43,731 nt of DNA, taken from Deltaproteobacteria bacterium. Lineage in GTDB: Bacteria > UBA10199 > JACPAL01. Both the position numbers and the translations under genes were made by a program. The DNA is taken from positions 1-43,731 of the forward strand of contig JACPAL010000012.1 in the NCBI GenBank assembly GCA_016180855.1. The letters run 5' to 3'. The notes beneath the pieces are model-generated. The model searched no databases and had not been told where the DNA came from. It saw only the letters and a program-made list of their open reading frames with translations. Shown piece by piece: positions 7,507 through 32,961 of the stretch. Numbering within the stretch: the first letter of the stretch is position 1; each line of letters opens with the position of its first letter.

Positions 7507-7541
7507 CAGTACACTGATGGGTGTGTTGAAAAATGGCTTTT

Positions 7542-7667: not shown

Positions 7668-7670
7668 TGA

Positions 7671-8810
7671 TTACTTTTTAAGGGATTGGATGTACCCGAG
7701 CAGATCATTCAACTCCCCCTTCTCAAAACGGGGCCAAGGGATTTCTTTCTCCTGCATCACCGAATGCATGAAGGGGGTGTGGTTCCACATGGCGGCCACC
7801 ATATCGATTGATGAGGAGGCCTTCGGACTGGCCGAAAGATCGGGACCAGCCCCCTGGATTCCTCCGCCGAGTGAGTGACAAGTATTGCACTGTTTATCGG
7901 CAAAAAGTTTTCGCCCCGCCGTTAAATCCGGCGAAGAATCAAAGTAGTTGAGAAAATAGATATAGGCGACAAGGTCGGCAATCTCCCTCTCGGAGAAGTG
8001 GGGCGCCTCCAGCCCCTGTTCACTCAATCGGGAAAACATCTGAGGGGCATGGTTCCAGAGTCGAGAGACCGTCTGCGTAAGACTCACCTGCAGGCCAAGA
8101 GCGGGGTTCGCCAGGTTCGGCTGGGAACTGTCGTTGCTACCCCCATGGCACTGGGAACATCCCTTGCTGCGATAAACCTTTCTCCCCTCATTGGGGTTTC
8201 CAGGAACTCCATACGTTGTTGCTGACTCGCTCCGTGCCGTTTCCCTCAGGTAGGCAACGAGATCCATCATCTCCACTCCCTCAAAGCGTGGCCAAGGGAT
8301 ACCAAGCCGTGACATTTGTGCCGACATCCGGGGGCCATGATTCCAGAGTGTCTTGGCGAGATAAATCGGTGTCATTCCTCGCGGGAAGGAAGAGGGATCG
8401 GTATGGCAGCGAATACATTGGCGCTCCTTGAAGAGCCCCTTTCCGCGTGTCGAGTTCCCCGGCTCATCAAAATAGTTTACATAATAAAGGAAGGCGATCA
8501 GATTCTCAATCTCGGCTCCGGTCAGATGGGGACGAATAATCTTCATCTCCCGCATCTTCCCCCCCATCGTTTGGGCATTGTTTAACATCGCGCTGGCGAC
8601 ATCAAGACGCGAGCCTTTCAGGTTGATCTTCCCGAGGTCATGACCGATACGACCCCCTTGGCCGAGGATTGAGTGGCACTTCGAACACCCCTTTTCAGAA
8701 AAGAGATGGTCGCCCTGCACGGGACTTTGCGGAAAATTTTGCTGTCCGAATCCGATGACAGGAGAAATCAAAATCGCCAACAGGAGCCAACTGACAGAAG
8801 AGATCCTCAT
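7671..8810 (-). CDS. Four-heme periplasmic cytochrome c (four tandem class I-like domains)
   Basis: The protein has 379 residues with a Sec signal peptide (cleavage near GFG). Four CxxCH sites (CSKCH, CIRCH, CSQCH, CNTCH) are spaced about 90 residues apart, each heading a repeat of one cytochrome domain. Repeats 2-4 each carry WNHxPxM, whose Met is a candidate sixth heme ligand; repeat 1 has a degenerate version. The protein thus arose by internal quadruplication. It overlaps the NrfD-like gene by 4 bp (ATGA), so it is translationally coupled to that complex and is probably its electron outlet to periplasmic carriers or the oxidase. Confidence 0.88.
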   Translation of the reverse strand: MRISSVSWLLLAILISPVIGFGQQNFPQSPVQGDHLFSEKGCSKCHSILGQGGRIGHDLGKINLKGSRLDVASAMLNNAQTMGGKMREMKIIRPHLTGAEIENLIAFLYYVNYFDEPGNSTRGKGLFKERQCIRCHTDPSSFPRGMTPIYLAKTLWNHGPRMSAQMSRLGIPWPRFEGVEMMDLVAYLRETARSESATTYGVPGNPNEGRKVYRSKGCSQCHGGSNDSSQPNLANPALGLQVSLTQTVSRLWNHAPQMFSRLSEQGLEAPHFSEREIADLVAYIYFLNYFDSSPDLTAGRKLFADKQCNTCHSLGGGIQGAGPDLSASPKASSSIDMVAAMWNHTPFMHSVMQEKEIPWPRFEKGELNDLLGYIQSLKK

Positions 8811-10135
8811 TCCGATTTTCCTCCCATCCCTGGAAGATATCCCTTAACCCTCTCATGAACCTCTTGAAGAGAGGACTCACGCCCTTCCTCAATCTCCCAG
8901 ATAGAGACGATCGGAAAGATCTTGGTAAAGATCATATAAAGCAGAATAAAGGCAGCGAAGCAGCCGGCGGTAATGGCGAATTCAACTAACGTCGGATGAT
9001 AGATCCCCCTCACGTAAGGAAGACGCGGGTTGACGAGTGATGGGACGACGATCGTAAAACGCTCCAACCACATTCCGATCGTCACGGCGATTGAGGCAAT
9101 GACCGTTCCACGCACCGTCCGTGTCTTGCGGTTTGCCAGGATCACAAACGGAATGACAAAGCAACAGCCGACCATCATCCAGAAATAAAAGGCGTAAGGA
9201 CCGGACATCTTGGAGCGGAAAATTTCCATCTCCAGCGGTTCATTGCCATAGAAGACAGTCAGATACTCGCTGAATGTAAAATAAAACCAGAGGAGCGACA
9301 TGACAAGCAGGAGAATGCCGAGATAATTAAAGTGGATCTCCTTTAAGTATTCTTCCAGGCGATAAACCTTGCGGATGATGGCCATCGCAATCATGAGGGC
9401 GGCAATCCCCGAGAAGATCGCCCCGACAACAAAGTAAGGACCAAAGATAGCGGAGTGCCACATCGGCTGGATCGTCATGGAAAAAACGTAGCTCACTACG
9501 GTGTGGACGGAGACCGCGATCGGAATCACAACGACCGCCATGATTGAAATGAGACGCTCGAGGATCCGTTTTTGTTTCGGTGTCTCTTGCCAGCCAAGCG
9601 CTAGGATCCGGTAGAACCGTTGCCATTTGACGCCGCGATCACGAAGGCGGGCGATATCCGGGATCAGGGGCAGATACAGGTAGATCGAAGAGGCGGTGAG
9701 ATAACAGGTAATGCTCGTGACATCCCAGAGAAGCGGCGAGGTAAAATGGGGGTGTTTGATCACATTCAGCATCCGATCCGGGCGCCCCAGATCGATCAGG
9801 ATATTCCCCACACCGAAAAGGAGGACCATGACCGTGATCACCTCAGCCGATCGGGTGATCGCGCGTCTCCATTCTGCCTGGGAAATCCTTAAGATCGCCG
9901 AGATGAGTGTCCCGGCATGAGAGATGCCGATGAAAAAAACAAAATTGGTGATATAGATTCCCCAATAGGTCGGTCGGGAAAGGCCGGTGACCCCAAGACC
10001 ACTGTGAAATTGCCGGAGATAGGCCAAAAATCCGATAAACCAGATGGAGAAGAGGATCGCTGCAGTAATCCAAAATCGCTTCGTGGTCTGTTCCACCGGT
10101 TTAAGGAGAATCTGGTCCTGTTCACTGACCTTCAT
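8807..10135 (-). CDS. NrfD/PsrC-type integral membrane quinone-interacting subunit
   Basis: The protein has 442 residues with about ten hydrophobic segments. The first begins near residue 20, and the last is close to the C-terminus. Features of the NrfD/PsrC/ActC/QrcD family are seen, such as RPTYWGIYITNFVFFIGISHAGTL near the N-terminus. The family sits in the membrane and exchanges electrons with menaquinone or ubiquinone. The length and helix number fit ActC/QrcD better than short PsrC. It starts immediately after the Fe-S gene stop, with GAAGGAGGAGGTG upstream, and overlaps the cytochrome gene by 4 bp. Confidence 0.9.
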   Translation of the reverse strand: MKVSEQDQILLKPVEQTTKRFWITAAILFSIWFIGFLAYLRQFHSGLGVTGLSRPTYWGIYITNFVFFIGISHAGTLISAILRISQAEWRRAITRSAEVITVMVLLFGVGNILIDLGRPDRMLNVIKHPHFTSPLLWDVTSITCYLTASSIYLYLPLIPDIARLRDRGVKWQRFYRILALGWQETPKQKRILERLISIMAVVVIPIAVSVHTVVSYVFSMTIQPMWHSAIFGPYFVVGAIFSGIAALMIAMAIIRKVYRLEEYLKEIHFNYLGILLLVMSLLWFYFTFSEYLTVFYGNEPLEMEIFRSKMSGPYAFYFWMMVGCCFVIPFVILANRKTRTVRGTVIASIAVTIGMWLERFTIVVPSLVNPRLPYVRGIYHPTLVEFAITAGCFAAFILLYMIFTKIFPIVSIWEIEEGRESSLQEVHERVKGYLPGMGGKSE

Positions 10136-10825
10136 CTAGTCACCTCCTCCTTCTGAAAGATAGATCACCTTGGGTTCCGTTCCGAGATCCTCCATGAGGC
10201 GAAACGCCCGACGACTTCGAACCAGTTTGGAGACCTCACTCTCGGGGTCATCAAGATCCCCAAAAATCATCGCTTGTGAGGGACAGACCTCCACGCAGGC
10301 GGGGATATAGTCTTCAGGGATCATCTCCCGACCCTCCACGCGGGCCTTTTCACGCCCTTTCTGGAGGCGATGGGTACAAAGGGTACATTTTTCAACGACC
10401 CCCTTGGGACGAATCGATACATCCCGATTCCGGATCGGTTTCATTTCTTCCGGCCAGACCGGTTTTTTCCAGTTAAATTCACGGACGGTATAGGGACAGG
10501 CGGTTGTGCAATACCGGCAGCCGATACAGCGCGAAAAAATCTGACCGATAATCCCTTCCTCGCTCTTGTACGTCGCACTCACGGGACAGACCTTCGTGCA
10601 AGGGGGGTTATCACAGTGGAGACACGGCAACGGAAAAAGCCTCATCCGAAAATGGGGGAAGGTCCCCTCAAAAGTTGGAAGAACACGAATCCAGTGGATG
10701 GAACGTCCTTGCTCATGGAGTTCCTGATTCGGTGGGGCCACATTATTTTCCGACTGACAGGCTACCACACAGGCCTGACAGGCGCTGCACTTGTCGAGAT
10801 CAATCACCATTCCCCATCGTGTCAT
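10136..10825 (-). CDS. 4x[4Fe-4S] ferredoxin-type subunit (PsrB/QrcC-like)
   Basis: The protein has 229 residues without a signal peptide. Four cysteine groups are visible: CSACQACVVAC, CLHCDNPPCTKVC, CIGCRYCTTAC, and CTLC paired with a later CVEVC. Together these are 16 cysteines for four cubane clusters, the standard wiring subunit of complex iron-sulfur molybdoenzymes (DmsB, PsrB, QrcC, the C-terminal part of ActB). It lies between the molybdopterin-family gene (13-bp gap) and the NrfD gene. It probably passes electrons between the membrane subunit and the periplasmic cytochromes, and would reach the periplasm by riding with its Tat-signalled partner. Confidence 0.92.
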   Translation of the reverse strand: MTRWGMVIDLDKCSACQACVVACQSENNVAPPNQELHEQGRSIHWIRVLPTFEGTFPHFRMRLFPLPCLHCDNPPCTKVCPVSATYKSEEGIIGQIFSRCIGCRYCTTACPYTVREFNWKKPVWPEEMKPIRNRDVSIRPKGVVEKCTLCTHRLQKGREKARVEGREMIPEDYIPACVEVCPSQAMIFGDLDDPESEVSKLVRSRRAFRLMEDLGTEPKVIYLSEGGGD

Positions 10826-10838
10826 ACTCGTATCCCTC

Positions 10839-13073
10839 TCATACCTTATAAACCTTTACGCGGGTCATCCGAGGCTGGGGCAATTCCGTCGATCGTGAAT
10901 CCCCTTCCTCAATATCACGTGGGTTTGCCCCAATCCCCTTGGCCCACCGTCCCATCCCCTTATGACCAAACCCGACAGGAACACCGACGGCAGCCGGGTC
11001 TATCCCTTCATAAAGTCTGGCAACTCCGCGAATCCTGCCGCTTGAGGATTCAACCCAAATTTCGTCGTTCTCATCGATCTTTAACTGATGGGCCGTTATC
11101 GGGTTCAGTTCAAACCAGGTCTTCCAGCCGATTTGAAGGTGGGAGCCGGCGATATCGGCAAGCCAGGACTGATTTGCATTTCTTCCACCGGTCATCGTCA
11201 TCAGAGGATAGCTGATCAGGGAAAAGGGGAAGTCCTTCTGAACGCCCGGAGGGATTGTCGGGAGATCCTTCAAGCCGGGGAATTCAAATCGTCCCAGGTT
11301 ATTCCGAAAGACCCGCGCCCAGTCTTCGTAAAAATAAACCGGATCCCACCATCCTCCCTTTTCTCGAAGCATTTTTTGAAACTCATCAAGATTGCCATAG
11401 GAGGGGGAACGCCAGCCACCACGAGAGAGGAAAGAAGTCCAGGTCGCCTCAAATTCGGTTCCAAACAGATCTCCCTTTTGCGATTCGAAGAGTTGTCGCA
11501 TCCTCTCCCAGAGGGCCGTCTCAAAATCCTTCCACGGGAGCGCCTTGGAGATCGGATTCCCCAAAAGGCGTGACAGTTCCAGAAGAAGATCACCGGTATG
11601 TCGTGTCTCATAGAGTGGGGGGCGCACCGGCGCTGCAAGACCGACGAGTGGAAAACCCTGTATCGTGGAGACTGGGAGATCCTGCCATCTCTCCAGATAG
11701 GTATGATCCGGCAGGACGAGATCGCAGAAGGCAGTCGTCTCATCGAGAAACGGGGAGAAACTGACGAGAAGCGGAATCTTGGCAAAAATTTCACGCAGCC
11801 TTCCCGACTGCGGATTCGAAAAAAGCGGATCGGTGTAATAAAAAAAGAGGGCCTCTAAAGGATAAGGGGTTCGGGCAGTCCATTGGAATTTCCCGTGCCC
11901 AAGTCCCTCGAGGGCAATCGCATCTCTCTCGACAGGCGGAAGTTGTCCTGTGTCGGCCTCACGCGGGATGAGGACACCACCCGGAATATTGATGCTTCCG
12001 ACGAGGGCATTCAAGGTATGAATGGCGATCTGGTCTCTTGGATCGAGTCGGGCCGAAACGGCCAAGGCCGGCTTTGTGGCAGCGAACTCACGCGCCAATC
12101 GGATGATGGTGTCGATCGGGACACCGGTCAGTTCCGAAATGATCTGATGGGAGTAGTTCTCCAGGACAAGGTTTTTGAACTGACCGAACCCGGCCGTATG
12201 CTCACCCAGGTAATAGCCATCATAGAGATCCTCCTTCAGGATGACATGGATGATCCCCAAGGCGAGCCACCCCTCGGTCCCTGGATGGATCGGGACCCAT
12301 TCATCCGCCTTGGCGGCAGTTGTTGAGAGACGGCTCTCGACCTGTATGACCCGTCCGCGATGTGCGACATTGCCACGTCGCAAATTCGCCCAACCTCGCA
12401 AATTTTCGACCGGCGAACTCGCCGCCTCCAGGAGCGGTGTTGAGAAGGAAAGGAGAAAGCGTGTCCTTTCCAGATCCCATTTCGGTTCGCTTCGAATACC
12501 GTGGGTCTTTTCGAGCGCCTCGATCGGCCCCTGCCATGGTGCAAAGCTGTTATCGAGATAATTGGGGGATCCATAAGCCTCTAAAAATCTTTCGAACAGG
12601 GTCCGCATCAGTCCGTGATAACGTCCTCCCATCACAGCAACCTTGTGGGTTTCTTTCGCTTCCCGAAGCCGTTTCAGCTCCTTGGAGACCGTTGCCAACG
12701 CCTCTTCCCAGGTGATCTTTTCCCATTTTCCTTCGCCTCTTTCGCCGACGCGCCGCATCGGGCCACGCAGCCGATCCGGATCATAAAAAGACAAGAGGCC
12801 GGCAACTCCCTTGGGGCAAAGGGTCTTGTGATTAATCGGATGGATCGAATTTCCCGTAATGGAAACCGGCCACGAGCCGATCATCCGAACACGAATACCG
12901 CAGGCGCCGGGACATTGCTGACAAACCGACGTGACCCAGCTCTCCTCCCCACGCGCGAATGCCTCCTCAATCCCGGCCAGTTCGGAGGCCGAGAGGAGGC
13001 CTGACTGCCAGGCAAAAAGAAGGAGAGAACCGATCCCCGCATCCTTCAAAAATTCTCTACGAGAAATCGTCAT
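10839..13073 (-). CDS. Molybdopterin oxidoreductase-family subunit, probably without Mo (QrcB/ActB-like)
   Basis: The protein has 744 residues. A Tat signal (SRREFLK, about residues 4-10) is followed by an N-terminal cluster motif C51-x2-C54-x3-C58 ... C86, then the molybdopterin-binding domains and a C-terminal dinucleotide-binding domain. Polysulfide- and thiosulfate-reductase relatives have a Cys (Ser or Sec in other classes) as Mo ligand a few residues after a GSPN motif. Here GSPN is at 168-171, but the following residues (YLDNSFAPWQG) contain no Cys, Ser at the right place, or Sec. That is what is known for QrcB and ActB, which lack Mo. Neighbours agree: pentaheme cytochrome, Fe-S and NrfD genes. 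A catalytic reductase cannot be fully excluded. Confidence 0.82.
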   Translation of the reverse strand: MTISRREFLKDAGIGSLLLFAWQSGLLSASELAGIEEAFARGEESWVTSVCQQCPGACGIRVRMIGSWPVSITGNSIHPINHKTLCPKGVAGLLSFYDPDRLRGPMRRVGERGEGKWEKITWEEALATVSKELKRLREAKETHKVAVMGGRYHGLMRTLFERFLEAYGSPNYLDNSFAPWQGPIEALEKTHGIRSEPKWDLERTRFLLSFSTPLLEAASSPVENLRGWANLRRGNVAHRGRVIQVESRLSTTAAKADEWVPIHPGTEGWLALGIIHVILKEDLYDGYYLGEHTAGFGQFKNLVLENYSHQIISELTGVPIDTIIRLAREFAATKPALAVSARLDPRDQIAIHTLNALVGSINIPGGVLIPREADTGQLPPVERDAIALEGLGHGKFQWTARTPYPLEALFFYYTDPLFSNPQSGRLREIFAKIPLLVSFSPFLDETTAFCDLVLPDHTYLERWQDLPVSTIQGFPLVGLAAPVRPPLYETRHTGDLLLELSRLLGNPISKALPWKDFETALWERMRQLFESQKGDLFGTEFEATWTSFLSRGGWRSPSYGNLDEFQKMLREKGGWWDPVYFYEDWARVFRNNLGRFEFPGLKDLPTIPPGVQKDFPFSLISYPLMTMTGGRNANQSWLADIAGSHLQIGWKTWFELNPITAHQLKIDENDEIWVESSSGRIRGVARLYEGIDPAAVGVPVGFGHKGMGRWAKGIGANPRDIEEGDSRSTELPQPRMTRVKVYKV

Positions 13074-13076
13074 AAG

Positions 13077-13601
13077 TCACCGATGACACGAGATACAATC
13101 CACAGAGGCTCCTTGCCTCTGATGGCACTCAAGACAGTTTTCCATTAAAAGATCCTTTGGCGCCGTCGTCGGAGGTTTGTTCCTTTCCTCCATTTTGCCG
13201 TGACACTCCTCACAGGAGACCTTTCCAAATGTGACATGTCTTTGATGCGAAAAGTAAACATGGTCTGGCATGCGCGTGAGACGACGCCAGGGGATTTTCC
13301 CCTCTTTCTCGGCATACTCGCGCACCTTGGCCTCCTCGGGTTTTTCGGAAAGAGGTGCCGCATGACACCCGAGACAGATCTCTACAGGAGGGAGGGTTGC
13401 GAAGGCTTGGGTTTCCACCCCTGTATGACAGTGGTTACACTCCAGTTTCAGCTCCGTTACGTGAAGCCTGTGATTGAAGGCAATCGGTTGCACAACCCGT
13501 TGTTTGAATCGATGCACCCCTGCCAGAATGGCGAGAAGAGCGATCAACACAATCACCACAAGAACGATCTTCCCCTTTAATTTTCTTTGACTATCAGACA
13601 T
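13077..13601 (-). CDS. Membrane-anchored pentaheme cytochrome c (ActA/QrcA-like)
   Basis: The protein has 174 residues with one N-terminal membrane helix (about residues 11-29) that appears uncleaved, then five CxxCH sites: CNHCH, CLGCH, CEECH, CLECH and CISCH. Paired FNHRLH and FSHQRH segments supply likely distal His ligands, a pattern typical of class III/c7-like domains. ActA is pentaheme and QrcA hexaheme, and either leads its operon as this gene does. It ends 3 bp before the molybdopterin-family gene. It is likely the periplasmic heme subunit that links the complex to soluble cytochromes. Confidence 0.87.
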   Translation of the reverse strand: MSDSQRKLKGKIVLVVIVLIALLAILAGVHRFKQRVVQPIAFNHRLHVTELKLECNHCHTGVETQAFATLPPVEICLGCHAAPLSEKPEEAKVREYAEKEGKIPWRRLTRMPDHVYFSHQRHVTFGKVSCEECHGKMEERNKPPTTAPKDLLMENCLECHQRQGASVDCISCHR

Positions 13602-13706: not shown

Positions 13707-14027
13707 TTAGAGTCCCTTGAGGTATTGGACAACCTCGGCAATCAATCCATCATCAAGTTTTCCCTTAAAGGCGGGCATTTTTCCGCCAATGCCGTCGGTA
13801 ACGCTCTTGATGAGGTCAGCATCCACTTTGGCCTTGGTGTCGTCCGTAAGATCGAGTTGTTTCAGCTCCACCTTCATCCCTTTGACCATCGGGGCGCTCC
13901 CCTTGCCATCAATACCGTGACAGACCTTGCATTTGGCCTCGAAGGTTGCCTTCCCATCGGCAAAAGCCGAAGGGGTAACGGCGGTGAGGAACCAGAGAAT
14001 CCCAATGATCAGTGATATCTTTTGCAT
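13707..14027 (-). CDS. Small monoheme cytochrome c
   Basis: The protein has 106 residues. A Sec signal peptide (cleavage near AFA) is followed by one class I cytochrome domain with CKVCHG, and a downstream KMPAFKG whose Met is the likely sixth ligand. The ATG at 14027 has AAGGAGG upstream; a start at 14051 is in frame but has no such site. It is a candidate soluble carrier between the bc-type or Qrc-like complex and the oxidase or NxrC. An FNR-like palindrome lies about 100 bp upstream, so it may be transcribed separately from the cytochrome b cluster. Confidence 0.9.
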   Translation of the reverse strand: MQKISLIIGILWFLTAVTPSAFADGKATFEAKCKVCHGIDGKGSAPMVKGMKVELKQLDLTDDTKAKVDADLIKSVTDGIGGKMPAFKGKLDDGLIAEVVQYLKGL

Positions 14028-14124
14028 GAACCCTCCTTGGTTTGTTTTCAAACCCCTTTGTCAACAGACCGCTAAATAGAGAGCTTTTCCCGTCTTTTGA
14101 ATATGATCTTCCTCGCCTCAGGGG

Positions 14125-14251: not shown

Positions 14252-15307
14252 TTAAACAAGCGCCTCCCACACGGTTAAGATGATTAAGGTCACGACGGCT
14301 ATCACCCCGAGCCAGATGGAAAAATCCCGGTTTGGAAATTTTTTGGCAAGACCGCTCTCAATAAATGGCCAAAAGATGAGAAGGGCGTAGGCGGCACCGG
14401 TCCCCAACACCCCAACCTGGAGCGAGGTCAGTTTCAACCACCGAAAGGTAAAATAAAAGTACCACTCCGGCTTGATATGTTCCGGCGTCAAGAAAGGATC
14501 GGCAGGCGGCCCGAGCCGCGCGGGAAAAAACACCACCAAAAAGGTAATCAGGAGCGTGAGACACATCCCGATAATCACCTCCATCAGGAAGTGATTTGGA
14601 AAGAACGGAAAGTGCCTCTCCGGCTTTCCCTTGTCCTCTTCAAACTGAAACTCGGTCACTCCCAACAAACGAATCAGCGTGATATGAACGACTAACAGAA
14701 GCGTCAGGCCGAGCGGCAAGAGCATCGTGTGAAAGACGAAAAATCGCGTCAAGGTATTCTCCTCCACACTATCTCCACCTCGCATAAAGCGAGCCAGAAA
14801 ATCGCCAAGTAACGGCACATTCTGCGTGATGTTAGCCGCCACCGTTGCCCCCCAGTAAGAGAGCTGCTCGTAGATAAGGGAATAGCCGGTAAATCCAAAA
14901 CCGAGCGTACAACCCAAAATCAGGCAGCCAATCATCCAGTTGAGTTCGCGCGGCTTCCGATAGGCCCCCGTAAAGAAAATACGAAAGACGTGAAGGATGA
15001 CTGCAATGATCATCAGATTGGCCGCCCACTTATGGACACTCCGGATAACCCAGCCAAAGTGGATGTCGTAAGTGATCCGTTGAATGCTTGAATAGGCATG
15101 GCCCGGTTCTGGAACGTAATAGAATGTGAGCAAGATGCCTGTGACAACCTGGATCATAAAAAGGTACGCCGGCGTTCCACCGAGTGCAAACCACCAGCGC
15201 TTGAGATGGTGTGGAACCGGCTCGCTCGTCACCTTGGTAAAAAATTCACCCGGAATGGGGATCGAGACCTTCAGCCAGTCGGTTAATTTTTTGAAAATCG
15301 GTTTCAC
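14252..15307 (-). CDS. Cytochrome b of a Rieske/cytochrome b complex
   Basis: The protein has about 351 residues. It has eight or so membrane helices, the four heme-ligand histidines in the second and fourth helices (HKWAANLMIIAVILH and FFVFHTMLLP...VVH regions), a quinol-site PEW (HIKPEWYFYF), and a long second half as in full-length cytochrome b rather than split b6/subunit IV. A GTG at 15307 is chosen because GGAGGAAGA precedes it and it overlaps the preceding stop codon as GTGA. A longer ATG frame from 15412 would read through the upstream gene. It transfers electrons from quinol to the Rieske protein and the low-potential chain. Confidence 0.93.
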   Translation of the reverse strand: MKPIFKKLTDWLKVSIPIPGEFFTKVTSEPVPHHLKRWWFALGGTPAYLFMIQVVTGILLTFYYVPEPGHAYSSIQRITYDIHFGWVIRSVHKWAANLMIIAVILHVFRIFFTGAYRKPRELNWMIGCLILGCTLGFGFTGYSLIYEQLSYWGATVAANITQNVPLLGDFLARFMRGGDSVEENTLTRFFVFHTMLLPLGLTLLLVVHITLIRLLGVTEFQFEEDKGKPERHFPFFPNHFLMEVIIGMCLTLLITFLVVFFPARLGPPADPFLTPEHIKPEWYFYFTFRWLKLTSLQVGVLGTGAAYALLIFWPFIESGLAKKFPNRDFSIWLGVIAVVTLIILTVWEALV

Positions 15308-16122
15308 TCTTCCTCCAGTGATCGGTGAAGCTTGATCAAAAGGAGAATGAAGAGAATGAGAAAAAGTCCGACCAGCGATCCAATGGCCCATCTCTTCTTG
15401 ACCTTTTTCCAAAGTGCGGCCGTCTCCTGTTTCATCACCTCGAGATTGGTGAGGACCAACTCGGTTTTTTTCTCGATCTCCATCACATCAAGCGTGTGTG
15501 TCATTTGATGGAGTGCGTTGCGCTCGGCAAACAGTTTCTCTTCAAATTTGCGGACCGGCATTCCACGACGGTCAAGCTTGTGGAACGTCGATTTCATTTT
15601 TTGAAGCTCCAGCTCGGCTGAGATAAACGCCTGTTTCATTTTTCGACCGTTCTCATACGAATGACATTGCGAACAGAGCGTCTCATCGATGAGATCAAAG
15701 GAGGCCCGTTCCACATCGTGACTCTTATGGCACGTGACACAACTTGGCCCAATCCCTCGGCGAAATGCTGAATAATGAGGGCTCTTTTTGTAGTTTTCCA
15801 TGACACCGACGTGACATTTGCCACAGAAATCCGGGATTTCTTCAGGTTTTGGCGAACCGACAAATCCCTTTTCAGGATTCATCGCCAGAGCCTCGTCGTT
15901 GGGATCTCCACCATGGCACCCTTCACAGTTGTTTCCCAGCTGGGCGTGAATGCTCTTTTCCCAGAGGCTGACCGGTTGCGCCAGCTCCCCCCCCATCTCA
16001 CGATGGCAGGAGAGGCAGACGCTGACTTTTGCCGGTTCTTCAGCGAAACTCAAGTTAGGCAACAGAAGCAGGAGAACGAATATCGCCCCCCTTAATTCAA
16101 GGGGAGATATCACGAGACCCAT
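15304..16122 (-). CDS. Pentaheme cytochrome c with coiled coil and C-terminal anchor
   Basis: The protein has 272 residues. A signal peptide ends near SFA, then five CxxCH sites (CLSCH, CEGCH, CGKCH, CVTCH, CSQCH) fill the first ~135 residues. A helical, probably coiled-coil stretch follows (about 140-235), and a C-terminal membrane helix (about 243-265) anchors it, leaving a short charged tail. Multiheme cytochromes of this shape accompany Rieske/cytochrome b genes in deltaproteobacterial-type clusters and take the place of cytochrome c1. It overlaps the Rieske gene by 13 bp and cytochrome b by 4 bp, which indicates tight coupling. Confidence 0.87.
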   Translation of the reverse strand: MGLVISPLELRGAIFVLLLLLPNLSFAEEPAKVSVCLSCHREMGGELAQPVSLWEKSIHAQLGNNCEGCHGGDPNDEALAMNPEKGFVGSPKPEEIPDFCGKCHVGVMENYKKSPHYSAFRRGIGPSCVTCHKSHDVERASFDLIDETLCSQCHSYENGRKMKQAFISAELELQKMKSTFHKLDRRGMPVRKFEEKLFAERNALHQMTHTLDVMEIEKKTELVLTNLEVMKQETAALWKKVKKRWAIGSLVGLFLILFILLLIKLHRSLEEE

Positions 16123-16523
16123 ACCTCATCCTCCTTCTCTTCCAATCGAAGTCGTTCCAACCCCTTGGGCGGTGGCCCAGAGACCACGCTCCCGTTCACA
16201 TCAAACCGGGCCCCATGACAGGGGCAGAGAAACTCATTTTTCACCCCTTCCCAGGTCACAAGACAACCCAAGTGGGAACAGACCAGCGAAAAAGCGGCGT
16301 ACCCCTCGGTACCATGGATCACCACCGCCGGCCCTCCCCGGATATGAAATCGCTTCATCCCGCCGGGTGGGAGTTCGTTCTTGAGAATCTTAATGGTTTC
16401 ACCCCCCTTCTTTTTTGAAGGAGGGATCAGATAGGAAAGAACGGGATAGAGGATACTCCCGGCAAAGATTGAACCAAGGAAACCGAGCGAGATTCCCAAA
16501 AATCGGCGGCGTGTCGGTTTCAC
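16110..16523 (-). CDS. Rieske [2Fe-2S] subunit
   Basis: The protein has 137 residues with a Tat-type N-terminus (TRRRFLG) and one membrane helix. The two cluster-binding loops are CSHLGC and CPCHGA, each giving one Cys and one His ligand plus the disulfide cysteines. It is shorter than mitochondrial Rieske proteins but of usual length for bacterial ones. It overlaps the upstream multiheme gene by 4 bp. It takes one electron from quinol at the outer face of the membrane and passes it to the c-type heme partner. Confidence 0.95.
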   Translation of the reverse strand: MKPTRRRFLGISLGFLGSIFAGSILYPVLSYLIPPSKKKGGETIKILKNELPPGGMKRFHIRGGPAVVIHGTEGYAAFSLVCSHLGCLVTWEGVKNEFLCPCHGARFDVNGSVVSGPPPKGLERLRLEEKEDEVWVS

Positions 16524-17644
16524 GGTAAGATCAGGCTCCCACCCCCGAGATCGACCCTCATCTCGGTCTCCTGGATCAATCGGGGTTGATAAAGATAATA
16601 AAGTCTTGCCGAGATCTCCAAGGCTCTTTCCTGTGGAACAAAAAAGGTGAAATGTTCAATCTTTTCCTCTCCCGGTTTGAGACGGTTATCCTCCTTGACC
16701 TTAAACGCCTTGAGAAAAAGATCGGAGTCTCGCGTGATCCTGTTCCCTGCCTTGTCAACCATGATCTTCTGGTAGATTCTTTCCTCTGAAACCAATGTTG
16801 TCCCGCCGCTTGTCACCTGGAGTTGGAGGATCAGTTTTCGTGTCGGCATGCCAGTCGGAACCTTGTGCCCCGAACCGACATTCTTGAGCCTCACCACCGC
16901 ATGGACCTTATCGCCCGAACGCCTTGCCTCACCGATCGTGATCTCCACCGCCTTTTTCACCTGTTCGATCGAATGCCCCCCGACCGCCTCGTGACTATTA
17001 ATATAAACCTCTTTAACCGGTTTAACACGCAGAGGGACGGGTGACCCTTCAATCGCAGGCATATGACACGACTGACATTCCCTCCCCTCGCGGCCGAATG
17101 AACTCTCCCTCCATTCGGAATAGGTCTCAAAGATCGGGGCGCCGAGGTCGTTGGTGTACTCGTGGCAACCGGCGCAAAAGACAGATTTTTCGAAATGGGG
17201 AGCGCTCTCGATCGGGTGAAACGGTGAACTGATCCCTTTGAGAGGACCCCATTTCTTTTGGGTCAACTCTAAAACAAACGGATCTTTGGCACCCAAACGA
17301 ACCTCTCGGACCCGGTGGCAAAAATCACAGCTGACCCCCTGTTGGATCATCGGCTCTTCGATGTCCTGACCTTTGATAAGGCGCGAAAAAGGGGCATGGC
17401 AGGAGAGGCAAAGAGAGTCACTCTTTCCCCTCGTCTCCCTCGAGGTCTCAATAAAAATAGGATAAAAGATCGGGTCCGAGACGGCGTTGGCATGCATCGA
17501 TCCCTTCCATCCTTCATAGATCGCCTCATGACACTCACCGCAGACCTTGGCAGAGGTAAACCCTCTTTCCTTAAGTTTTGAAGAGCGTTCTTCCCCCCAC
17601 GAGGGAATCGCGAGGAGGAGGAGTATAACGAATAGGGGTTTCAT
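16520..17644 (-). CDS. Pentaheme c554-like periplasmic cytochrome c
   Basis: The protein has 374 residues with a Sec signal peptide (residues about 1-17). Five CxxCH sites (CGECH, CLSCH, CDFCH, CAGCH, CQSCH) occupy the first half, in the arrangement of cytochrome c554-type proteins (VCGECHEAIYEGWKGSMHA). The C-terminal half is beta-rich and heme-free. ATG at 17644 is preceded by GGAGG and overlaps the upstream decaheme stop codon as ATGA; the longer frame from 17683 is unlikely. It probably links the bc-type complex with further acceptors. A nitrogen-compound role is possible from the c554 likeness but is not shown. Confidence 0.85.
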   Translation of the reverse strand: MKPLFVILLLLAIPSWGEERSSKLKERGFTSAKVCGECHEAIYEGWKGSMHANAVSDPIFYPIFIETSRETRGKSDSLCLSCHAPFSRLIKGQDIEEPMIQQGVSCDFCHRVREVRLGAKDPFVLELTQKKWGPLKGISSPFHPIESAPHFEKSVFCAGCHEYTNDLGAPIFETYSEWRESSFGREGRECQSCHMPAIEGSPVPLRVKPVKEVYINSHEAVGGHSIEQVKKAVEITIGEARRSGDKVHAVVRLKNVGSGHKVPTGMPTRKLILQLQVTSGGTTLVSEERIYQKIMVDKAGNRITRDSDLFLKAFKVKEDNRLKPGEEKIEHFTFFVPQERALEISARLYYLYQPRLIQETEMRVDLGGGSLILP

Positions 17645-18414
17645 TGAATCCTCCATCGGTGTGGTGCGTGACAAGCGGTGCAACTCAGCTCCTTGGAAAA
17701 GAGGGGATGCCCTCCCTTCAGATCAGAGTGGCATGTCATGCAAAGCTCGCGATCTGGGCGGATTTTTTCATGAGGCTTATGACAGGTGGAACAGTCAAAG
17801 GTCGACATGGGGGCTTCTTCGGGAAAACTCTCTTTCCCAACCTGAATTTTTTGATGACATTCAAGGCAAGTTTTCCGATCGGGTCGGAGTTCCTCTGACT
17901 TGGCCAAAAAGTGATGACAATCGGTGCAGTGCATAAAGGCCATTTTTTTGCCAGGTCCTTCCACCTTGTCGGTGTGACAATCGATACAACGATCGGTCGG
18001 TTTAATAAAATTATGAACGCCTCCCATATGACAATCCAAACAATCAATCCCCGCCTTTTTAAAGTGAACCTGATGCCCCGCCGTTTCACCAATCAACTTC
18101 CATTGAGGATCCTGACTCAAGTGACACCGGGAGCAGACCTTATGATCGAGTTCCGGATGGCGAACAACCTCTTTGGGTTGCTGTGTAAAATAAAACCAGA
18201 CTTGATGAAGACTCGCTGAAAGTGGTTGTTTGTGACATTCATGACAAGAGACAAGATGATGAGGAGAGGTGCTCCATTTTTCAAACGGCTTTTGCATGAT
18301 GTGGCACGACTGGCAGAAGCGTGCATCGTGTTGAACATAATCATAGGAACGATAGATAAATAAACTCGACAGGGCGATGAACATAGCGATTCCTGCTAAA
18401 AGGATTTTTCGCAT
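17641..18414 (-). CDS. Decaheme cytochrome c with NapC/NirT-like N-terminus
   Basis: The protein has 257 residues. One N-terminal membrane helix (about residues 3-20) is followed by ten CxxCH sites: CQSCH, CHECH, CSRCH, CLDCH, CIDCH, CTDCH, CLECH, CSTCH, CMTCH and CTACH. The first part resembles NapC/NirT quinol dehydrogenases (RFCQSCHIM...SPHH), and the second part is a further string of hemes. At one heme per ~25 residues it is a compact wire. It leads the Rieske/cytochrome b cluster with 4-bp coupling to the next gene, and could deliver quinol electrons to the periplasm independently of the Rieske protein. Confidence 0.87.
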   Translation of the reverse strand: MRKILLAGIAMFIALSSLFIYRSYDYVQHDARFCQSCHIMQKPFEKWSTSPHHLVSCHECHKQPLSASLHQVWFYFTQQPKEVVRHPELDHKVCSRCHLSQDPQWKLIGETAGHQVHFKKAGIDCLDCHMGGVHNFIKPTDRCIDCHTDKVEGPGKKMAFMHCTDCHHFLAKSEELRPDRKTCLECHQKIQVGKESFPEEAPMSTFDCSTCHKPHEKIRPDRELCMTCHSDLKGGHPLFSKELSCTACHAPHRWRIQ

Positions 18415-18436: not shown

Positions 18437-18667
18437 TCATTTTGCATTATGATTGTCATCATACAATTTTTCCTTTGAGATTTCACATCCCTTTGTATGT
18501 CTGATCCACCACAGAAATGCAGCAATAAAGAACAAGGGTAACAAGGTAAGCAAAATCGTCGTGCCGTAATAGGCCATCCGCGACTCCTCTTTTGACGAGA
18601 AACAGACGGCACAGGCCCAAAGAGGAGACGAGACAAAAAAAATGCTAAAGAAGGTAAAGGGCCACAT
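18437..18667 (-). CDS. Small CAVC-type membrane protein of the oxidase operon
   Basis: The protein has 76 residues. A hydrophobic N-terminus (about residues 1-17) is followed by the cysteine pair ACAVCF, then a membrane helix (about 37-56) and a polar tail. Small proteins with a CAVC motif after a signal-like helix occur beside cytochrome c oxidase genes in several bacteria; their role is unknown to me, and copper handling is a guess. It overlaps the end of the second subunit III gene by 23 bp and has only a weak ribosome-binding site, so coupled translation is likely. Confidence 0.62.
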   Translation of the reverse strand: MWPFTFFSIFFVSSPLWACAVCFSSKEESRMAYYGTTILLTLLPLFFIAAFLWWIRHTKGCEISKEKLYDDNHNAK

Positions 18668-19196
18668 AGATGACAGGCCACAGTAACACAACAAAGAACC
18701 AATAGATCCGGCAAAGGGCGAGTAGGGTTCCGGCGTTTCCCCTCTCAATCCGTCGGAGCCTCCAAAGGACAAAGAAAAGCAACAACAGCGCCACGACGAC
18801 ATGAAGCCCATGCATGCCGACAATCATATAAAACGTCCCCCCGTAAACATTCAGGGCCGTCGTAAGTCCGAACTGGATCAAACGGACCCATTCAAAACCT
18901 TGCAGGCCGAGAAAGGCAATCCCGAGCAACGCTGTTATCCCAAGAAAGGTCGAGATTTTTTTGATCCCTGCCTCGCGAAACGAACGGACGGCCATGTTCA
19001 TCGTCCAAAGGCTTGCAAGAAAAAGTACTGTATTGACCGCGGTGGTGCCAACGGGGAGTCTCGGCTGTCCTACGGGGGGCCACGGATGAACCGACTCCCT
19101 CAAGATCCAGTAGGAAGAGAGGAGCCCCGCAAAAAACATGATCTCCGTAAGAATGACAAGAACGAGGCCAATTTTGGCCGATTCTTCCTTGATCAT
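18645..19196 (-). CDS. Cytochrome c oxidase subunit III, second copy
   Basis: The protein has 183 residues with five membrane helices. It starts with the subunit III signature KIGLVLVILTEIMFFAGLLSS and contains GGTFYMIVGMHGLHVVVA and a final IYWFFVVLLWPVIYVALYLL. It lies 17 bp after the subunit IV gene. It differs clearly from the other subunit III gene of the operon at 19474-20061, so the duplication is old or the copy was acquired. Subunit III stabilises the core enzyme. Whether both are in one complex or alternate is open. Confidence 0.88.
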   Translation of the reverse strand: MIKEESAKIGLVLVILTEIMFFAGLLSSYWILRESVHPWPPVGQPRLPVGTTAVNTVLFLASLWTMNMAVRSFREAGIKKISTFLGITALLGIAFLGLQGFEWVRLIQFGLTTALNVYGGTFYMIVGMHGLHVVVALLLLFFVLWRLRRIERGNAGTLLALCRIYWFFVVLLWPVIYVALYLL

Positions 19197-19213
19197 TTCA
19201 CCCTCCCTCCTGG

Positions 19214-19477
19214 TTATCGACCTCTAATAATGTCCGGTACGAGTGCAAAATAAAGGATGAAGAGACAAACAACGCCACCCAACAGTATCCAGAGGATATA
19301 CCAGGGTTCCCACTTGAGACGCATGTAGTAGGCCCCCACCAAAAACGCCTTGGCAACCGCGATCACAAAAATCAGGATCGTCGACAGGACGACATTTCCC
19401 CAAAAACCGAGGAGGAGACTTAGACTTAAGAGAAAAAGGAGAACGGCCCAGAGCGCGACGAGGATTTTTGGTTTCAC
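19214..19477 (-). CDS. Cytochrome c oxidase subunit IV
   Basis: The protein has 87 residues with three hydrophobic helices, like prokaryotic subunit IV (CoxD/CtaF type). The middle contains IFVIAVAKAFLVGAYYMRLKWE, in which the Lys and the YYMRLK stretch match the family well. It overlaps the first subunit III gene by 4 bp and precedes the second. It is an accessory, non-redox part of the oxidase. Confidence 0.85.
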   Translation of the reverse strand: MKPKILVALWAVLLFLLSLSLLLGFWGNVVLSTILIFVIAVAKAFLVGAYYMRLKWEPWYILWILLGGVVCLFILYFALVPDIIRGR

Positions 19478-20061
19478 GACGCCCCTCCTTGAGAAGCAAG
19501 ATAGAGGAGCGGAAAGAGAAAAATCCAGACGACATCAACAAAGTGCCAATAGAGGCCGATCGATTCGATCCGGTGAGGAGTCCTTCCCTGACTCAAACCC
19601 CCCAAAATAACACCGTTGGCAACAAGCCCTCCAATGACATGAAGTCCATGAAGGCCTGTCATCAAATAGTAAAAACCCCAAAAAAGGCTACGGGACGGAA
19701 CAAGCCCCGCATGAATCTCATGAGAGTACTCATACCCTTTGAAGCAGAGGAAGAGGAGGCCCAAGAGGATCGTCACTCCGAGATACCGTCGGCCCAAGGC
19801 AAGATCCCCTTTTTCAACAATAGAATAATGGGCCAGTATCATCGTAAGGCTGCTCGTCAGCAGGACAACCGTATTCACTGACCCGACCCACAGGAGAGTT
19901 CGACCGGCCTCCATTCCCCACTCAGGATGATTAAAGCGGTACAGGATGTAACAAACGACCAACCCACCAAAAACGACAATCTCGGAGGCAAGAAACCACC
20001 AGATTCCAAGACGCCAGACCGGAACCTCTACGGACGAATTGTGAGAGACGGCGTGATTCAC
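19474..20061 (-). CDS. ctaE: Cytochrome c oxidase subunit III, first copy
   Basis: The protein has 195 residues with five membrane helices. The RLGIWWFLASEIVVFGGLV start, GLHGLHVIGGLV and the final ESIGLYWHFVDVVWIFLFPL are typical of subunit III. GTG at 20061 is chosen because AAGGGGAGG lies before it and it overlaps the subunit I stop codon as GTGA; a TTG at 20085 would also be in frame. It follows subunit I in the usual order. Confidence 0.92.
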   Translation of the reverse strand: MNHAVSHNSSVEVPVWRLGIWWFLASEIVVFGGLVVCYILYRFNHPEWGMEAGRTLLWVGSVNTVVLLTSSLTMILAHYSIVEKGDLALGRRYLGVTILLGLLFLCFKGYEYSHEIHAGLVPSRSLFWGFYYLMTGLHGLHVIGGLVANGVILGGLSQGRTPHRIESIGLYWHFVDVVWIFLFPLLYLASQGGAS

Positions 20062-21713
20062 GAGGCCTCCCCTTGGGAAAGCCAATCTTTTGCAGCCCCG
20101 GGAACGCTGTACTCATAGGGACCTCGGACAACAACAGGATCGGTCTCAAAATTTCTATGCCCCGGAGGGGAAGGAGCGATCCACTCCAGCGTGTTAGCCT
20201 GCCAGGGATTCGCCTCCGCAAGACGCCCCCGCCTAAGACTCAGAAAAAAATTAAGGATAAACGGAATCTGTCCCGTCAAAAGAATGATCAGCCCCACCGT
20301 CGCCAGGACATGGAGATGCTGAATGCGATGCAAAAATTCAAAGGCACTGGGATCGAAGATACGCCGGTGATGACCGGCAATCCCGACAGAGAAAAGGGGG
20401 AGAAAAGCGAGGTTAAAACCAATGAGCGTCAGCGTGAAGTGGACCTTGCCCCAAAATTCGCTCAGAAACCGGCCAAACAACTTGGGGTACCAATAATAGA
20501 TCCCGGCAAAGGTGGCGAGAAACGTAACGGGGAAGAGGGTGTAGTGAAAATGGGCGACGACAAAATAGGTGTCATGAACGTAGATGTCCGCCGCTGTCGA
20601 TCCATTCACGATCCCCGTAACCCCCCCCAACAAAAACTCGGCGATCATTCCGAGGGCAAAAAGCATCGCCGTCGAAAAGGAGATCGACCCTTTCCAAAGG
20701 GTGGCAATATAGGCAAACAGGGAAAATGCGAACGGAACGGAGATAAGAATCGTCGTGATACTAAAAGGCATCGCAAGCCTCGGATCAATGCCGCTGATAA
20801 ACTGGTGGTGGGCCCAGACGACAAAACTCAAAACCCCGGCAATCAGTGTTGAATAGATAATCGGCCGGTAACCAAAGAGCGGCTTGCGTGAAAAGACCGG
20901 GAGGATCTCGGCAATGATCCCGAGCGCCGGAAGCAGCAGAACGTAGACCTCCGGATGGCCGAAGAACCAGAAAAGATGCTGGAAGAGGAGCGGATCGCCA
21001 CCGGCGGCCGGAAGGAAGAATCCAACCTGCAGGGTCCGATCAGCGAGCAACATGAAGGCACCGGCAATCAAAGGACCAACCGAAAACATGAAGAGGATCG
21101 ACGCCACATTGATCATCCAGACGAAGATCGGCATCCGAAAGAGGGCCATCCCCTTGGCACGCAGACTGAGCGTCGTCGTCATAAAGTTGATCCCTCCCAT
21201 GAGCATCGACACAAACTCCAACGCGACGGCCAGGATCCAGAGATTCCCTCCCCAGACAACCCCCGTATAACCCGGTTCGGCCGAGAGGGGGGGATAGATC
21301 GTCCAGCCACCCGCAAACGCCCCGCCGGGGACAAAAAATGAAACAATGAGAACAACAGTGCTGAGGAAAAAGGTCCAATAGGAGAGCCTGTTGAGCCGCG
21401 GAAATGCCATATCCCGCGCGCCAATCATGAGGGGCAGCAGAAAATTGCCAAAACCCGAGAGAAGGATCGGCATCGCAACCCAAAAGACCATGATCGTCCC
21501 ATGCATCGTGACAAACATGTTGTATTGATCCGGACCGACCTGTCCAAAGCCGGGGACCGGTTCATTCGGCCAGGCGAGTTGATGACGAAAGAGGTAGGCG
21601 AGATATCCCCCGACAAGGGCCATCAAAAGGCCGGTGATGAGATACTGTTTCCCGATCGTTTTGTGATCGAGAGAGAAAACATACCTTCTCCAGAAACCCT
21701 GTTTTTCCGTCAC
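20058..21713 (-). CDS. ctaD: Cytochrome c oxidase subunit I (A-type heme-copper oxidase)
   Basis: The protein has 551 residues and 12 membrane helices. The metal-binding set is complete: a heme His in helix II (MHGTIMVFW), the CuB His and cross-linked Tyr in GHPEVY, the CuB pair in WAHHQF, and the heme pair in VAHFHYTLF. The Glu in GHPEVY indicates an A1-like proton pathway. It reduces O2 to water using electrons received at CuA of subunit II. It overlaps the subunit II gene by 4 bp. Confidence 0.97.
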   Translation of the reverse strand: MTEKQGFWRRYVFSLDHKTIGKQYLITGLLMALVGGYLAYLFRHQLAWPNEPVPGFGQVGPDQYNMFVTMHGTIMVFWVAMPILLSGFGNFLLPLMIGARDMAFPRLNRLSYWTFFLSTVVLIVSFFVPGGAFAGGWTIYPPLSAEPGYTGVVWGGNLWILAVALEFVSMLMGGINFMTTTLSLRAKGMALFRMPIFVWMINVASILFMFSVGPLIAGAFMLLADRTLQVGFFLPAAGGDPLLFQHLFWFFGHPEVYVLLLPALGIIAEILPVFSRKPLFGYRPIIYSTLIAGVLSFVVWAHHQFISGIDPRLAMPFSITTILISVPFAFSLFAYIATLWKGSISFSTAMLFALGMIAEFLLGGVTGIVNGSTAADIYVHDTYFVVAHFHYTLFPVTFLATFAGIYYWYPKLFGRFLSEFWGKVHFTLTLIGFNLAFLPLFSVGIAGHHRRIFDPSAFEFLHRIQHLHVLATVGLIILLTGQIPFILNFFLSLRRGRLAEANPWQANTLEWIAPSPPGHRNFETDPVVVRGPYEYSVPGAAKDWLSQGEAS

Positions 21714-22393
21714 GGCACCTCCAAGAGAGCGGCTGTCTCTTCTTTAACCCACTTCTCAAAATCCGGCTGATTAAGGACATGCAATTCACCCTTCATCATT
21801 CCATGCCCGCTCCCGCAAAGCTCCGCACAGGCGAGTGGAAAAACGCCTGTCTGCGTCGCCTCAAACCAGCCCCGGATCGTTCTCCCGGGGACTGCGTCCT
21901 GTTTTAAGCGGAGGTGGGGAATCCAGAGACTGTGGATCACATCAGCCGCCTCCAGTTCAAAAACAATCTTCCGGTTCACAGGAACGACCAACTGATTAAC
22001 AGCCTGGATGTCATCGGCGGAATCAAACTGCCCATCCGCCCCCGGGTGGGTGATATCCCAGACAAACTGCCTCCCGCGAACCCGGACCTTGTAGTCCGCA
22101 ATCGGCAATTGCTGTTTAATCTCCTCCCAGACAGGGGCCTGAACAACCTCGATGGCAAGATCAAATCCGAGGATCAGGGCCACAGGGAGCAGAATCCAGG
22201 CTAGCGCCTTGAGGGAGGTCCCGGGCTGGTAGGTCGCCGATCGGCCGGGGCGCCGCCGATACTTGAAGATAAAAAAGAGAAAAACCACTTCCGCCAGGAC
22301 AAACCAGGCACCGACGATATAATAGATGGTCCGGATGACATGATCGATCGCGCCGCCGTAGGTTGAGATGTTTTCGGGTAGCCAGTCCAGCAT
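21710..22393 (-). CDS. ctaC: Cytochrome c oxidase subunit II with CuA site
   Basis: The protein has 227 residues. Two N-terminal membrane helices (about residues 20-43 and 62-82) are followed by a cupredoxin domain with the complete CuA set: His in DVIHSLWIP, and CAELCGSGHGMM with two Cys, one His and one Met. There is no fused cytochrome c domain, so electrons must come from separate cytochromes. The ATG is at 22393. No good Shine-Dalgarno sequence is present, and a possible -10 box lies only a few bases upstream, so the mRNA may have almost no leader. It is the first gene of the oxidase operon. Confidence 0.95.
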   Translation of the reverse strand: MLDWLPENISTYGGAIDHVIRTIYYIVGAWFVLAEVVFLFFIFKYRRRPGRSATYQPGTSLKALAWILLPVALILGFDLAIEVVQAPVWEEIKQQLPIADYKVRVRGRQFVWDITHPGADGQFDSADDIQAVNQLVVPVNRKIVFELEAADVIHSLWIPHLRLKQDAVPGRTIRGWFEATQTGVFPLACAELCGSGHGMMKGELHVLNQPDFEKWVKEETAALLEVP

Positions 22394-28631: not shown

Positions 28632-28643
28632 GAATAACCTCCT

Positions 28644-32487: not shown

Positions 32488-32961
32488 TTAGCAACAATGT
32501 TCATACCGTTCTGGGGGCACCTTTTCCATCTGGCGGTAGACCTCCGCAATCTCCCCTGCACTCATGAGGTGGTCCATCGCCGGATAGAGAATCTTCTCTT
32601 CCTTGAGGTTATGCTGGGACAGAACGGACAAAAGCATCGCCTCCTCGGAGTCGGTCTCAGGACTCCCTTTGGCCACCTGCGCATGGATTGCATCGAGCGC
32701 CTCGTGGATCTGCCGGTGCTCCGCACGCATGACTGACGTGGGGCCTGTCTTGGGGTTCACCCCGCTTTTTCTTTCAAAGAGCGGGAATAGGATATCCTCT
32801 TCCCAAATAATGTGACGTTGGAGGCCGAATTTGAATTCGACGAACGCCCGTTTCGCTTCCGTGAAATTTTTCCTCTTCAGTTCCTGAAAAGTTTTGAACA
32901 GAGAGCCCAATCGGTCATGATCCGCCTCGAAATATCCTTTCACCGTTATTTTTGTGTTCAT
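32488..32961 (-). CDS. Hemerythrin-like HHE-domain protein
   Basis: The protein has 157 residues forming a four-helix bundle with the diiron ligand pattern: HDRL (His) near the N-terminus, HIIWEEDILFPLFE, then EHRQIHEALD, and HNLKEEKILYPAMD. Hemerythrin-like proteins bind O2, sense it, or handle NO and iron. The start at 32961 has AAGGAGG upstream and overlaps the chaperone stop as TGATG. Within the nxr operon it may protect the enzyme's metal centres from NO or oxygen stress, or buffer O2. That role is inferred. Confidence 0.9.
   Translation of the reverse strand: MNTKITVKGYFEADHDRLGSLFKTFQELKRKNFTEAKRAFVEFKFGLQRHIIWEEDILFPLFERKSGVNPKTGPTSVMRAEHRQIHEALDAIHAQVAKGSPETDSEEAMLLSVLSQHNLKEEKILYPAMDHLMSAGEIAEVYRQMEKVPPERYEHCC

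Follow-up and report, generated by a model that had tools for sequence, protein, structure and literature searches.

Introduction

Alternative complex III (ACIII) and Qrc are related complexes that operate in opposite directions (PMC6303296, PMC13059093; papers are cited here by PubMed Central (PMC) number and for the parts of their text that were available). In both, the subunit of the molybdopterin oxidoreductase (MoOR) family is free of cofactor (PMC13059093, PMC5928083): B1 of R. marinus carries none (PMC5928083), and QrcB has been described as lacking redox cofactors (PMC13059093). Whether ACIII pumps protons, and what roles ActC, ActD and ActF play in this, is an open question (PMC5928083, PMC13059093). 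Here we analyze a five-gene cassette on contig JACPAL010000012.1 of a Deltaproteobacteria bacterium (assembly GCA_016180855.1). The whole stretch that was analyzed, 43,731 nucleotides, is referred to below as the window. We propose that the cassette encodes a periplasm-facing quinone:cytochrome c oxidoreductase, free of molybdenum (Mo), which would form a third branch of the ACIII/Qrc superfamily with the composition A-B1-B2-C-E4. We put the probability of this reading at roughly 0.78.

Results

A conserved cassette with ACIII- and Qrc-like subunits

The cassette consists of five open reading frames (ORFs) on the minus strand, from 13601 to 7671, at the coordinates given by a preliminary description of the window (Table 1). 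That description had proposed the order pentaheme cytochrome c, MoOR protein, subunit with four [4Fe-4S] clusters, NrfD-family protein and four-heme cytochrome c, and this order was confirmed by the ORFs, by motif counts, which arrange the 16 cysteines of B2 in four quartets, and by Pfam matches (Cytochrome_C7 in A; Molybdopterin, Molybdop_Fe4S4 and Molydop_binding in B1; Fer4 families in B2; NrfD in C; Cytochrom_C in E4). The genes are spaced as in an operon: 3 bases lie between A and B1, 13 between B1 and B2 and 0 between B2 and C, and C and E4 overlap by 4 bases. The nearest NCBIfam models were QrcA for A (103.9 bits, cut-off 180), QrcB for B1 (268.4, cut-off 440) and QrcC for B2 (294, cut-off 400); C scored 132.7 bits with DsrP and just 39.3 with QrcD (cut-off 570). 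None of the QrcA, QrcB, QrcC and QrcD cut-offs was reached by the cassette proteins. The top PDB matches of A were the ActA chains 8k9e_A, 6lod_A and 6f0k_A, and C scored 249.8 bits with R. marinus ActC (6f0k_C) and just 54.9 with ActF.

The host genome (2.21 Mb in 30 contigs, 95.9% complete) contains a single copy of the cassette. Five other genomes of the host's order were present in a 60-genome sample, and the same gene order was found in G001 (88% MoOR identity) and G003 (64%). MoOR matches at E<=1e-50 occurred in 46 of 385 relatives, and among the best 80 loci kept from a wider contig scan, Candidatus Rokubacteria and Acidobacteria carry the same cassette. Because the same order, which the preliminary description had suggested looking for in other genomes, recurs in G001, G003 and other phyla, its recurrence is far beyond chance. 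A plasmid search gave only matches below 60% identity.

In a tree of membrane subunits, C of the window falls into a clade of 21 rows from several phyla, hereafter the clade, with an SH-like approximate likelihood ratio test (SH-aLRT) support of 98 in a 76-row quick tree, but 75/88 in a 43-row careful tree. Identity of C to the window is 57-92% within the clade, as compared to ~36% between such C subunits and reference canonical ActC. A four-heme homologue of E4 is encoded on the same locus in 18 of the 21 rows, and the exact order A-B1-B2-C-E4 is found in L173, L174 and others. The remaining three rows (L060, L061 and L175) are short contigs with no room for E4, one of which, L061, ends in a two-heme fragment. 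In some genomes, e.g. G390 (loci L061 and L101), the clade complex coexists with canonical ACIII and is therefore unlikely to be redundant with it.

ActD and ActF are absent

The preliminary description had noted neither ActD nor ActF, and profile searches agreed with it. ActD (PF11821) gave no match in the host genome (G000), G001 or G003, with matches in 10 of 19 genomes searched. A profile built from 17 ActF sequences matched only C itself in the same three genomes, and it found two matches in each of the controls G027, G422 and G420. The single match per genome to PF03916 (NrfD) in G000, G001 and G003 was discarded as evidence on ActF, because this model fails to detect real ActF. As to a counterpart of ActE, the four-heme protein ends the cassette, and the mono-heme cytochrome gene that lies upstream of it in the window is placed elsewhere or missing in G003. 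The latter was considered as a conserved subunit and left as context, since only G001 has it at the same place.

Residue marks in the membrane subunit and the iron-sulfur subunit

C matches ActC at the quinone residues Trp82 and Asp169, at all listed N-side channel positions, at Ser245 and at Glu394/Arg395; QrcD lacks the ActC channel residues that C keeps. Other positions separate the clade from ACIII. At the position of R. marinus His139, all 21 clade rows have Asp (Asp115 in the window), as do three of four QrcD rows, and all 42 ACIII rows have His. The position of Asp253 is Val or Ile throughout the clade (21/21; Val217 in the window) and Asp in 41 of 42 ACIII rows. Thr stands at the Tyr323 position in 21/21 clade rows; at the Glu338 position the window has Glu, and 9 of the 20 remaining clade rows have His.

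The proximal cluster motif of B2 reads CIGCR[YF]C, with four cysteines, in every clade row (21/21) and C[FI]GCRYC in 4/4 Qrc rows. The ACIII motif, C-x-G-[TV]-R, has three cysteines in 41 of 42 rows (one unread). A [4Fe-4S] proximal cluster in B2 is a prediction, because the proximal cluster of D. vulgaris Qrc is [3Fe-4S] by electron paramagnetic resonance (PMC6303296). The four-cysteine cluster, Asp115 and Val217 would offer annotators marks by which the complex can be separated from both ACIII and Qrc, and such marks matter for interpreting respiration in uncultured lineages with enzymes like nitrite oxidoreductase (NXR).

The MoOR-like subunit lacks a Mo ligand

No Mo ligand had been seen in B1 where one is expected, after GSPN (residues 168-171), and the alignment bears this out. 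The ligand column, which falls on Pro179, contains Cys in 13/13 Mo-type rows and in 0/21 clade rows, and in pairwise phmmer alignments the Mo cysteines of ArrA and PsrA fall on Pro179 and Trp180 of B1. The column is Ser in two clade rows and in 7 of 42 ACIII rows, and the surrounding loop is otherwise unconserved. The Asp of the PGTD motif, which we take to contact the guanine of the cofactor, is present in 13/13 Mo-type rows and is Glu267 in the window. Glu at this position is found in 13/21 clade, 39/42 ACIII and 3/4 Qrc rows. Parts of the pterin-binding motifs persist in B1.

The cysteines of the N-terminal cluster (C51, C54, C58 and C86) are kept, as had also been noted, and one [4Fe-4S] cluster in B1 is possible because this quartet is intact. 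The quartet was considered as a special mark of the complex and dropped, since nearly all aligned rows have it, in a count biased by a scan pattern that itself contains the fourth cysteine; in the alignment, four solved ActB chains lack it.

The predicted structure of B1 has a mean predicted local distance difference test score (pLDDT) of 86.4 and a predicted template modelling score (pTM) of 0.86. Its nearest folds are ArrA (Z 40.8; 670 residues, 2.6 A) and PsrA (Z 36.6; 647 residues, 2.6 A), with ActB (9ilt_B) behind them (Z 33.5; 577 residues, 3.1 A). Because the model fits ArrA and PsrA better than ActB, B1 appears to retain more of the architecture of a Mo enzyme than canonical ActB does, but no metal ligand. 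An intact Mo site and membership in a clade of polysulfide or thiosulfate reductases, which the preliminary description had named as the competing outcome, find an echo in this ranking of folds; the Mo cysteine itself is absent, and in sequence trees B1 does not fall among Mo enzymes.

Two archaeal-labelled loci (L062, 7471-9921; L064, 865-3300) encode B1-like proteins that have a Mo cysteine (GTPN, seven residues, C) and lie beside ActC-like subunits. These proteins are placed inside the wider group to which B1 belongs in a quick B1 tree and at the base of that group in a careful tree. They are possibly Mo-bearing relatives that branch near the superfamily root.

The two halves of the complex differ in phylogenetic affinity

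In the careful B1 tree, the clade of the window groups with Qrc (94/93), away from a 100/100 ACIII clade, and in the quick tree the wider group that includes QrcB has an SH-aLRT of 97. The membrane subunit groups with ActC: in the C trees, C of the window is a near neighbor of the ACIII clade, and a very long branch (100/100) sets the four QrcD rows apart from the rest. The phylogeny of these two subunits, suggested earlier as a check, thus puts the MoOR-like protein with QrcB and the membrane protein with ActC, and trees, motifs and residue comparison together uphold the original assignment to a Qrc/ACIII-like complex. The complex appears, from these sequence comparisons, to be a mosaic, with a periplasmic half nearer Qrc and a membrane half nearer ACIII.

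The finer branching is less firm. Constraining B1 of the E4-bearing clade to join ACIII, with Qrc outside, gave p = 0.0475 in the approximately unbiased test (p-AU), a borderline value for a group named after the tree had been seen. The clade was not monophyletic in the best B1 tree, but a single clade was not rejected (p-AU 0.0688), so nesting of Qrc within it cannot be claimed. In the B2 tree, the clade rows took separate, weakly supported positions near Qrc and ACIII, and most deep branches were unstarred. Separately, B1/B2 pairs from three genomes of one family (L182, L183 and L184; G354, G069 and G216) were seen to adjoin Qrc in the trees.

Genomic context

Table 1. Cassette genes and neighboring features in the window.
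Feature	Position	Strand	Remarks
A, membrane-anchored pentaheme cytochrome c, ActA/QrcA-like	13077..13601	-	174 aa; 5 CxxCH
B1, MoOR-like, QrcB/ActB1-like	10839..13073	-	744 aa; twin-arginine-type N terminus SRREFLK; no Mo cysteine (Pro179)
B2, iron-sulfur subunit	10136..10825	-	229 aa; 16 Cys; proximal motif CIGCRYC with four Cys in quartet
C, ActC-type NrfD-family quinone-site membrane subunit	8807..10135	-	442 aa; Asp115 / Val217
E4, secreted tetraheme cytochrome, four class-I c domains	7671..8810	-	379 aa; hemes at 42, 132, 218, 308
Mono-heme class-I cytochrome c, directly upstream of cassette	13707..14051	-	same place in G001, not G003
Rieske/cytochrome b cluster: cytochrome b, 5-heme cytochrome, Rieske, 5-heme c554-like	14252..17683	-	context
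aa3-type oxidase: COX2, COX1, two COX3-like	18645..22393	-	context
Nitrite-oxidoreductase-type operon: NxrA (36326-39766), NxrB, NxrC-like heme subunit, NxrD-like chaperone	32961..39766	-	

A Rieske/cytochrome b cluster adjoins the cassette, directly upstream, in all three genomes of the order that carry the cassette (3/3). We weighed counting its genes as subunits but treat them as context, since the adjacency holds inside the order, with just weaker relatives near the cassette in L169. In G001 and G003, oxidase and NxrA-B-C-D genes are found within ~30 kb of the cassette. NxrA of the window matches subunit A of nitrite oxidoreductase (7b04_B) with 1736.5 bits over ~1141 residues, and nitrite oxidation or nitrate reduction by the host is possible. 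Relatives of NxrA (E<=1e-30) were detected in 11 of 19 clade genomes searched, with no match in the other 8; G002 and G004, of the same order as the host, have neither an NxrA match nor a close MoOR match.

Several further observations concern the surroundings. Molybdenum-cofactor genes (27726-32127) follow the Nxr operon, and a cytochrome of 257 aa at 17641-18414 contains 10 CxxCH motifs, as against 8 in its G001 and G003 relatives. Just 3' of the cassette, positions 7530-7675 form a short palindromic repeat element whose 20-base ends are in inverted orientation. It has 43 matches in its own genome, of which about 10 are almost complete in length with >=96% identity, and resembles a miniature inverted-repeat transposable element. 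Just past the cassette, G001 (L021, 14381-16352) and G003 (L022, 756-2619) encode two proteins, a multiheme cytochrome and one predicted to be barrel-like and located in the outer membrane, which together resemble a porin-cytochrome conduit; no such pair was seen at the corresponding position of the window. In the Chloroflexi loci L063, L065 and L066, a B1-like gene is preceded by one for a different four-heme cytochrome of ~490-500 aa, which gave no BLAST match to E4 of the window.

Discussion

The subunit set, the cofactor motifs, the missing Mo ligand, the absence of ActD and ActF and the conservation of the cassette can all be read from sequence, and they suggest how such a complex might work. 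Quinone would bind in C on the P side, next to the proximal iron-sulfur cluster of B2, and would exchange electrons with the five A hemes. The tetraheme E4 would take the place of the mono-heme ActE as a wire to soluble cytochromes, may widen the range of soluble partners, and would lead by way of these to the co-encoded aa3 oxidase or the NXR-type enzyme. B1 would serve as a scaffold, possibly still with one [4Fe-4S] cluster. With C as its sole NrfD-type subunit, and ActD and ActF absent, the complex would be without the second proton route through the membrane that has been proposed for ACIII. As a natural complex that has the ActC channel but neither ActD nor ActF, it separates the roles of these subunits in the question of proton pumping. 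Two observations, the ActC channel retained in C and the high-potential enzymes encoded nearby, incline us towards quinol oxidation coupled to cytochrome c reduction.

Some observations weigh against this picture. The direction of electron flow is not readable from sequence, and the four-cysteine cluster of B2 together with the Asp of C at the His139 position resembles Qrc/Psr, which would fit quinone reduction. The closest folds of B1 belong to the Mo enzymes ArrA and PsrA. Pterin might still be bound, as loss of the ligand alone does not exclude it; arsenite oxidase is not known to have a protein ligand to Mo. That A to E4 make up one complex is suggested by gene order, and this order varies: L057 has two tetraheme genes, which lie upstream of B1, and several genomes have two copies (L168, L169, L177 and L059, two each).

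The same complex might run in reverse, passing electrons from a periplasmic cytochrome c, supplied for example by NXR, to quinone, either as Qrc does or in reverse electron transport. The grouping of B1 with QrcB rather than ActB (94/93), the four-cysteine motif of the four Qrc loci, the Asp shared with three of four QrcD, the lack of ActD and ActF as in QrcABCD and the NxrA relatives in 11/19 clade genomes would all suit such a direction, and bidirectional complexes, ACIII included, have been assumed in a nitrite oxidizer (PMC6050957). However, C has the channel residues that QrcD lacks, 8/19 clade genomes gave no NxrA match, and the adjacent Rieske/b complex could itself perform a reverse step. 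Moreover, the protons for quinone reduction by Qrc come from the N side (PMC6303296), and uphill reduction of quinone from a high-potential donor would therefore be still harder. We regard reverse operation as possible, though not what we would expect.

Another account starts from an ordinary ACIII in which ActD and ActF were lost secondarily and ActE was replaced, with no deeper separate history. The closeness of C to the ACIII clade agrees with it, and ACIII-like clusters without ActF are known, as in the actABCDE cluster of Nitrospirales (PMC12342949). It sits poorly with B1, which groups with QrcB and other non-ACIII rows outside the 100/100 ACIII clade and whose union with ACIII was disfavored in the borderline, post hoc AU test, and with the four-cysteine cluster, Asp115 and Val/Ile217, which are common to all 21 clade members read; we consider it unlikely. 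It seems to us very improbable that B1 is still an enzyme of Mo or tungsten whose metal site is unusual, in which case the complex would act on a substrate of its own as a reductase or dehydrogenase. ArrA and PsrA do outrank ActB as folds (Z 40.8 and 36.6 against 33.5), pterin-binding motifs partly persist and the archaeal-labelled relatives L062 and L064 retain the Mo cysteine, but the ligand column is without Cys in 21/21 rows, in a loop unconserved within the clade, the PGTD Asp of all 13 Mo-type rows is replaced by Glu267 as in 39/42 ACIII rows, and the kindred Qrc and ACIII have cofactor-free MoOR parts (PMC13059093, PMC5928083).

The third-branch oxidoreductase that we favor could be placed in a more ambitious scheme, in which it is a distinct third enzyme and also the ancestral stock of Qrc, where the ActC-type subunit was swapped for a QrcD type, and ACIII arose by gaining ActD, ActF and the three-cysteine cluster. 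The enzyme would then work with a single proton pathway through the membrane and a proximal [4Fe-4S] cluster of low potential, and would give the NXR-linked chains of uncultured bacteria their gateway to quinone. We offer this scheme tentatively and consider it doubtful as a whole.

Comparison with known systems

In the open-licence PMC literature, no title or abstract was found that names this complex as a separate branch, and the residue marks of the clade did not appear in the portions of related open-licence papers that were available. A four-heme ActE-like variant has been reported once before, in the ACIII-like cluster 4 of MBNT15 SHF-111, which has ActA-, B- and C-like genes together with an ActE-like four-heme protein; it differs, in a comparison by description only, in that ActD is listed (PMC9386147). 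PsrABC and ArrA share the MoOR-like fold and the N-terminal cysteine quartet with B1 but have the Mo cysteine, and no heme subunit is listed for them in the available text (PMC8076601).

The preliminary description considered the complex an intermediate or separate branch. Its separation from canonical ACIII and Qrc and its mixed affinities stand, but several of the marks first used to set it apart are normal in the superfamily. Loss of the Mo site is common to ACIII and Qrc, and a pentaheme cytochrome is normal for ActA (PMC8076601). The contrast between pentaheme A and a hexaheme in Qrc is also weak, since the four Qrc loci fetched likewise show 5 CxxCH. An unfused ActB is no mark either, as separate actB1 and actB2 genes are common in ACIII and are shared by the ACIII of Nitrospirales and iron oxidizers (PMC4643136, PMC12342949). 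ActB1 of the iron oxidizers keeps a CX2CX3CX27C motif (PMC4643136), and ActF and ActG are missing in Nitrospirales (PMC12342949). Both differ from the present complex in that ActD and ActE are kept as described, with no tetraheme cytochrome in the descriptions available (PMC12342949, PMC4643136).

With ACIII, the complex has in common the pentaheme A, the Mo-free MoOR-like B1, the iron-sulfur B2 and an ActC-type membrane subunit with the ActC channel residues. It differs in lacking ActD and ActF, in having the tetraheme E4 in place of a mono-heme E, in four rather than three cysteines at the proximal cluster, in the changes of His139 to Asp and Asp253 to Val, and in a B1 outside the ACIII clade. 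With Qrc (QrcABCD), it shares the small size of its subunit set, a B1 that groups with QrcB, the four-cysteine proximal motif and Asp at the His139 position; it is set apart by its ActC-type membrane subunit, by scores under the NCBIfam Qrc cut-offs and by the extra four-domain cytochrome, which the preliminary description had also noted. With an ActC-like half in the membrane and a QrcB-like half in the periplasm, the complex links ACIII and Qrc, and in doing so connects two enzymes of opposite direction.

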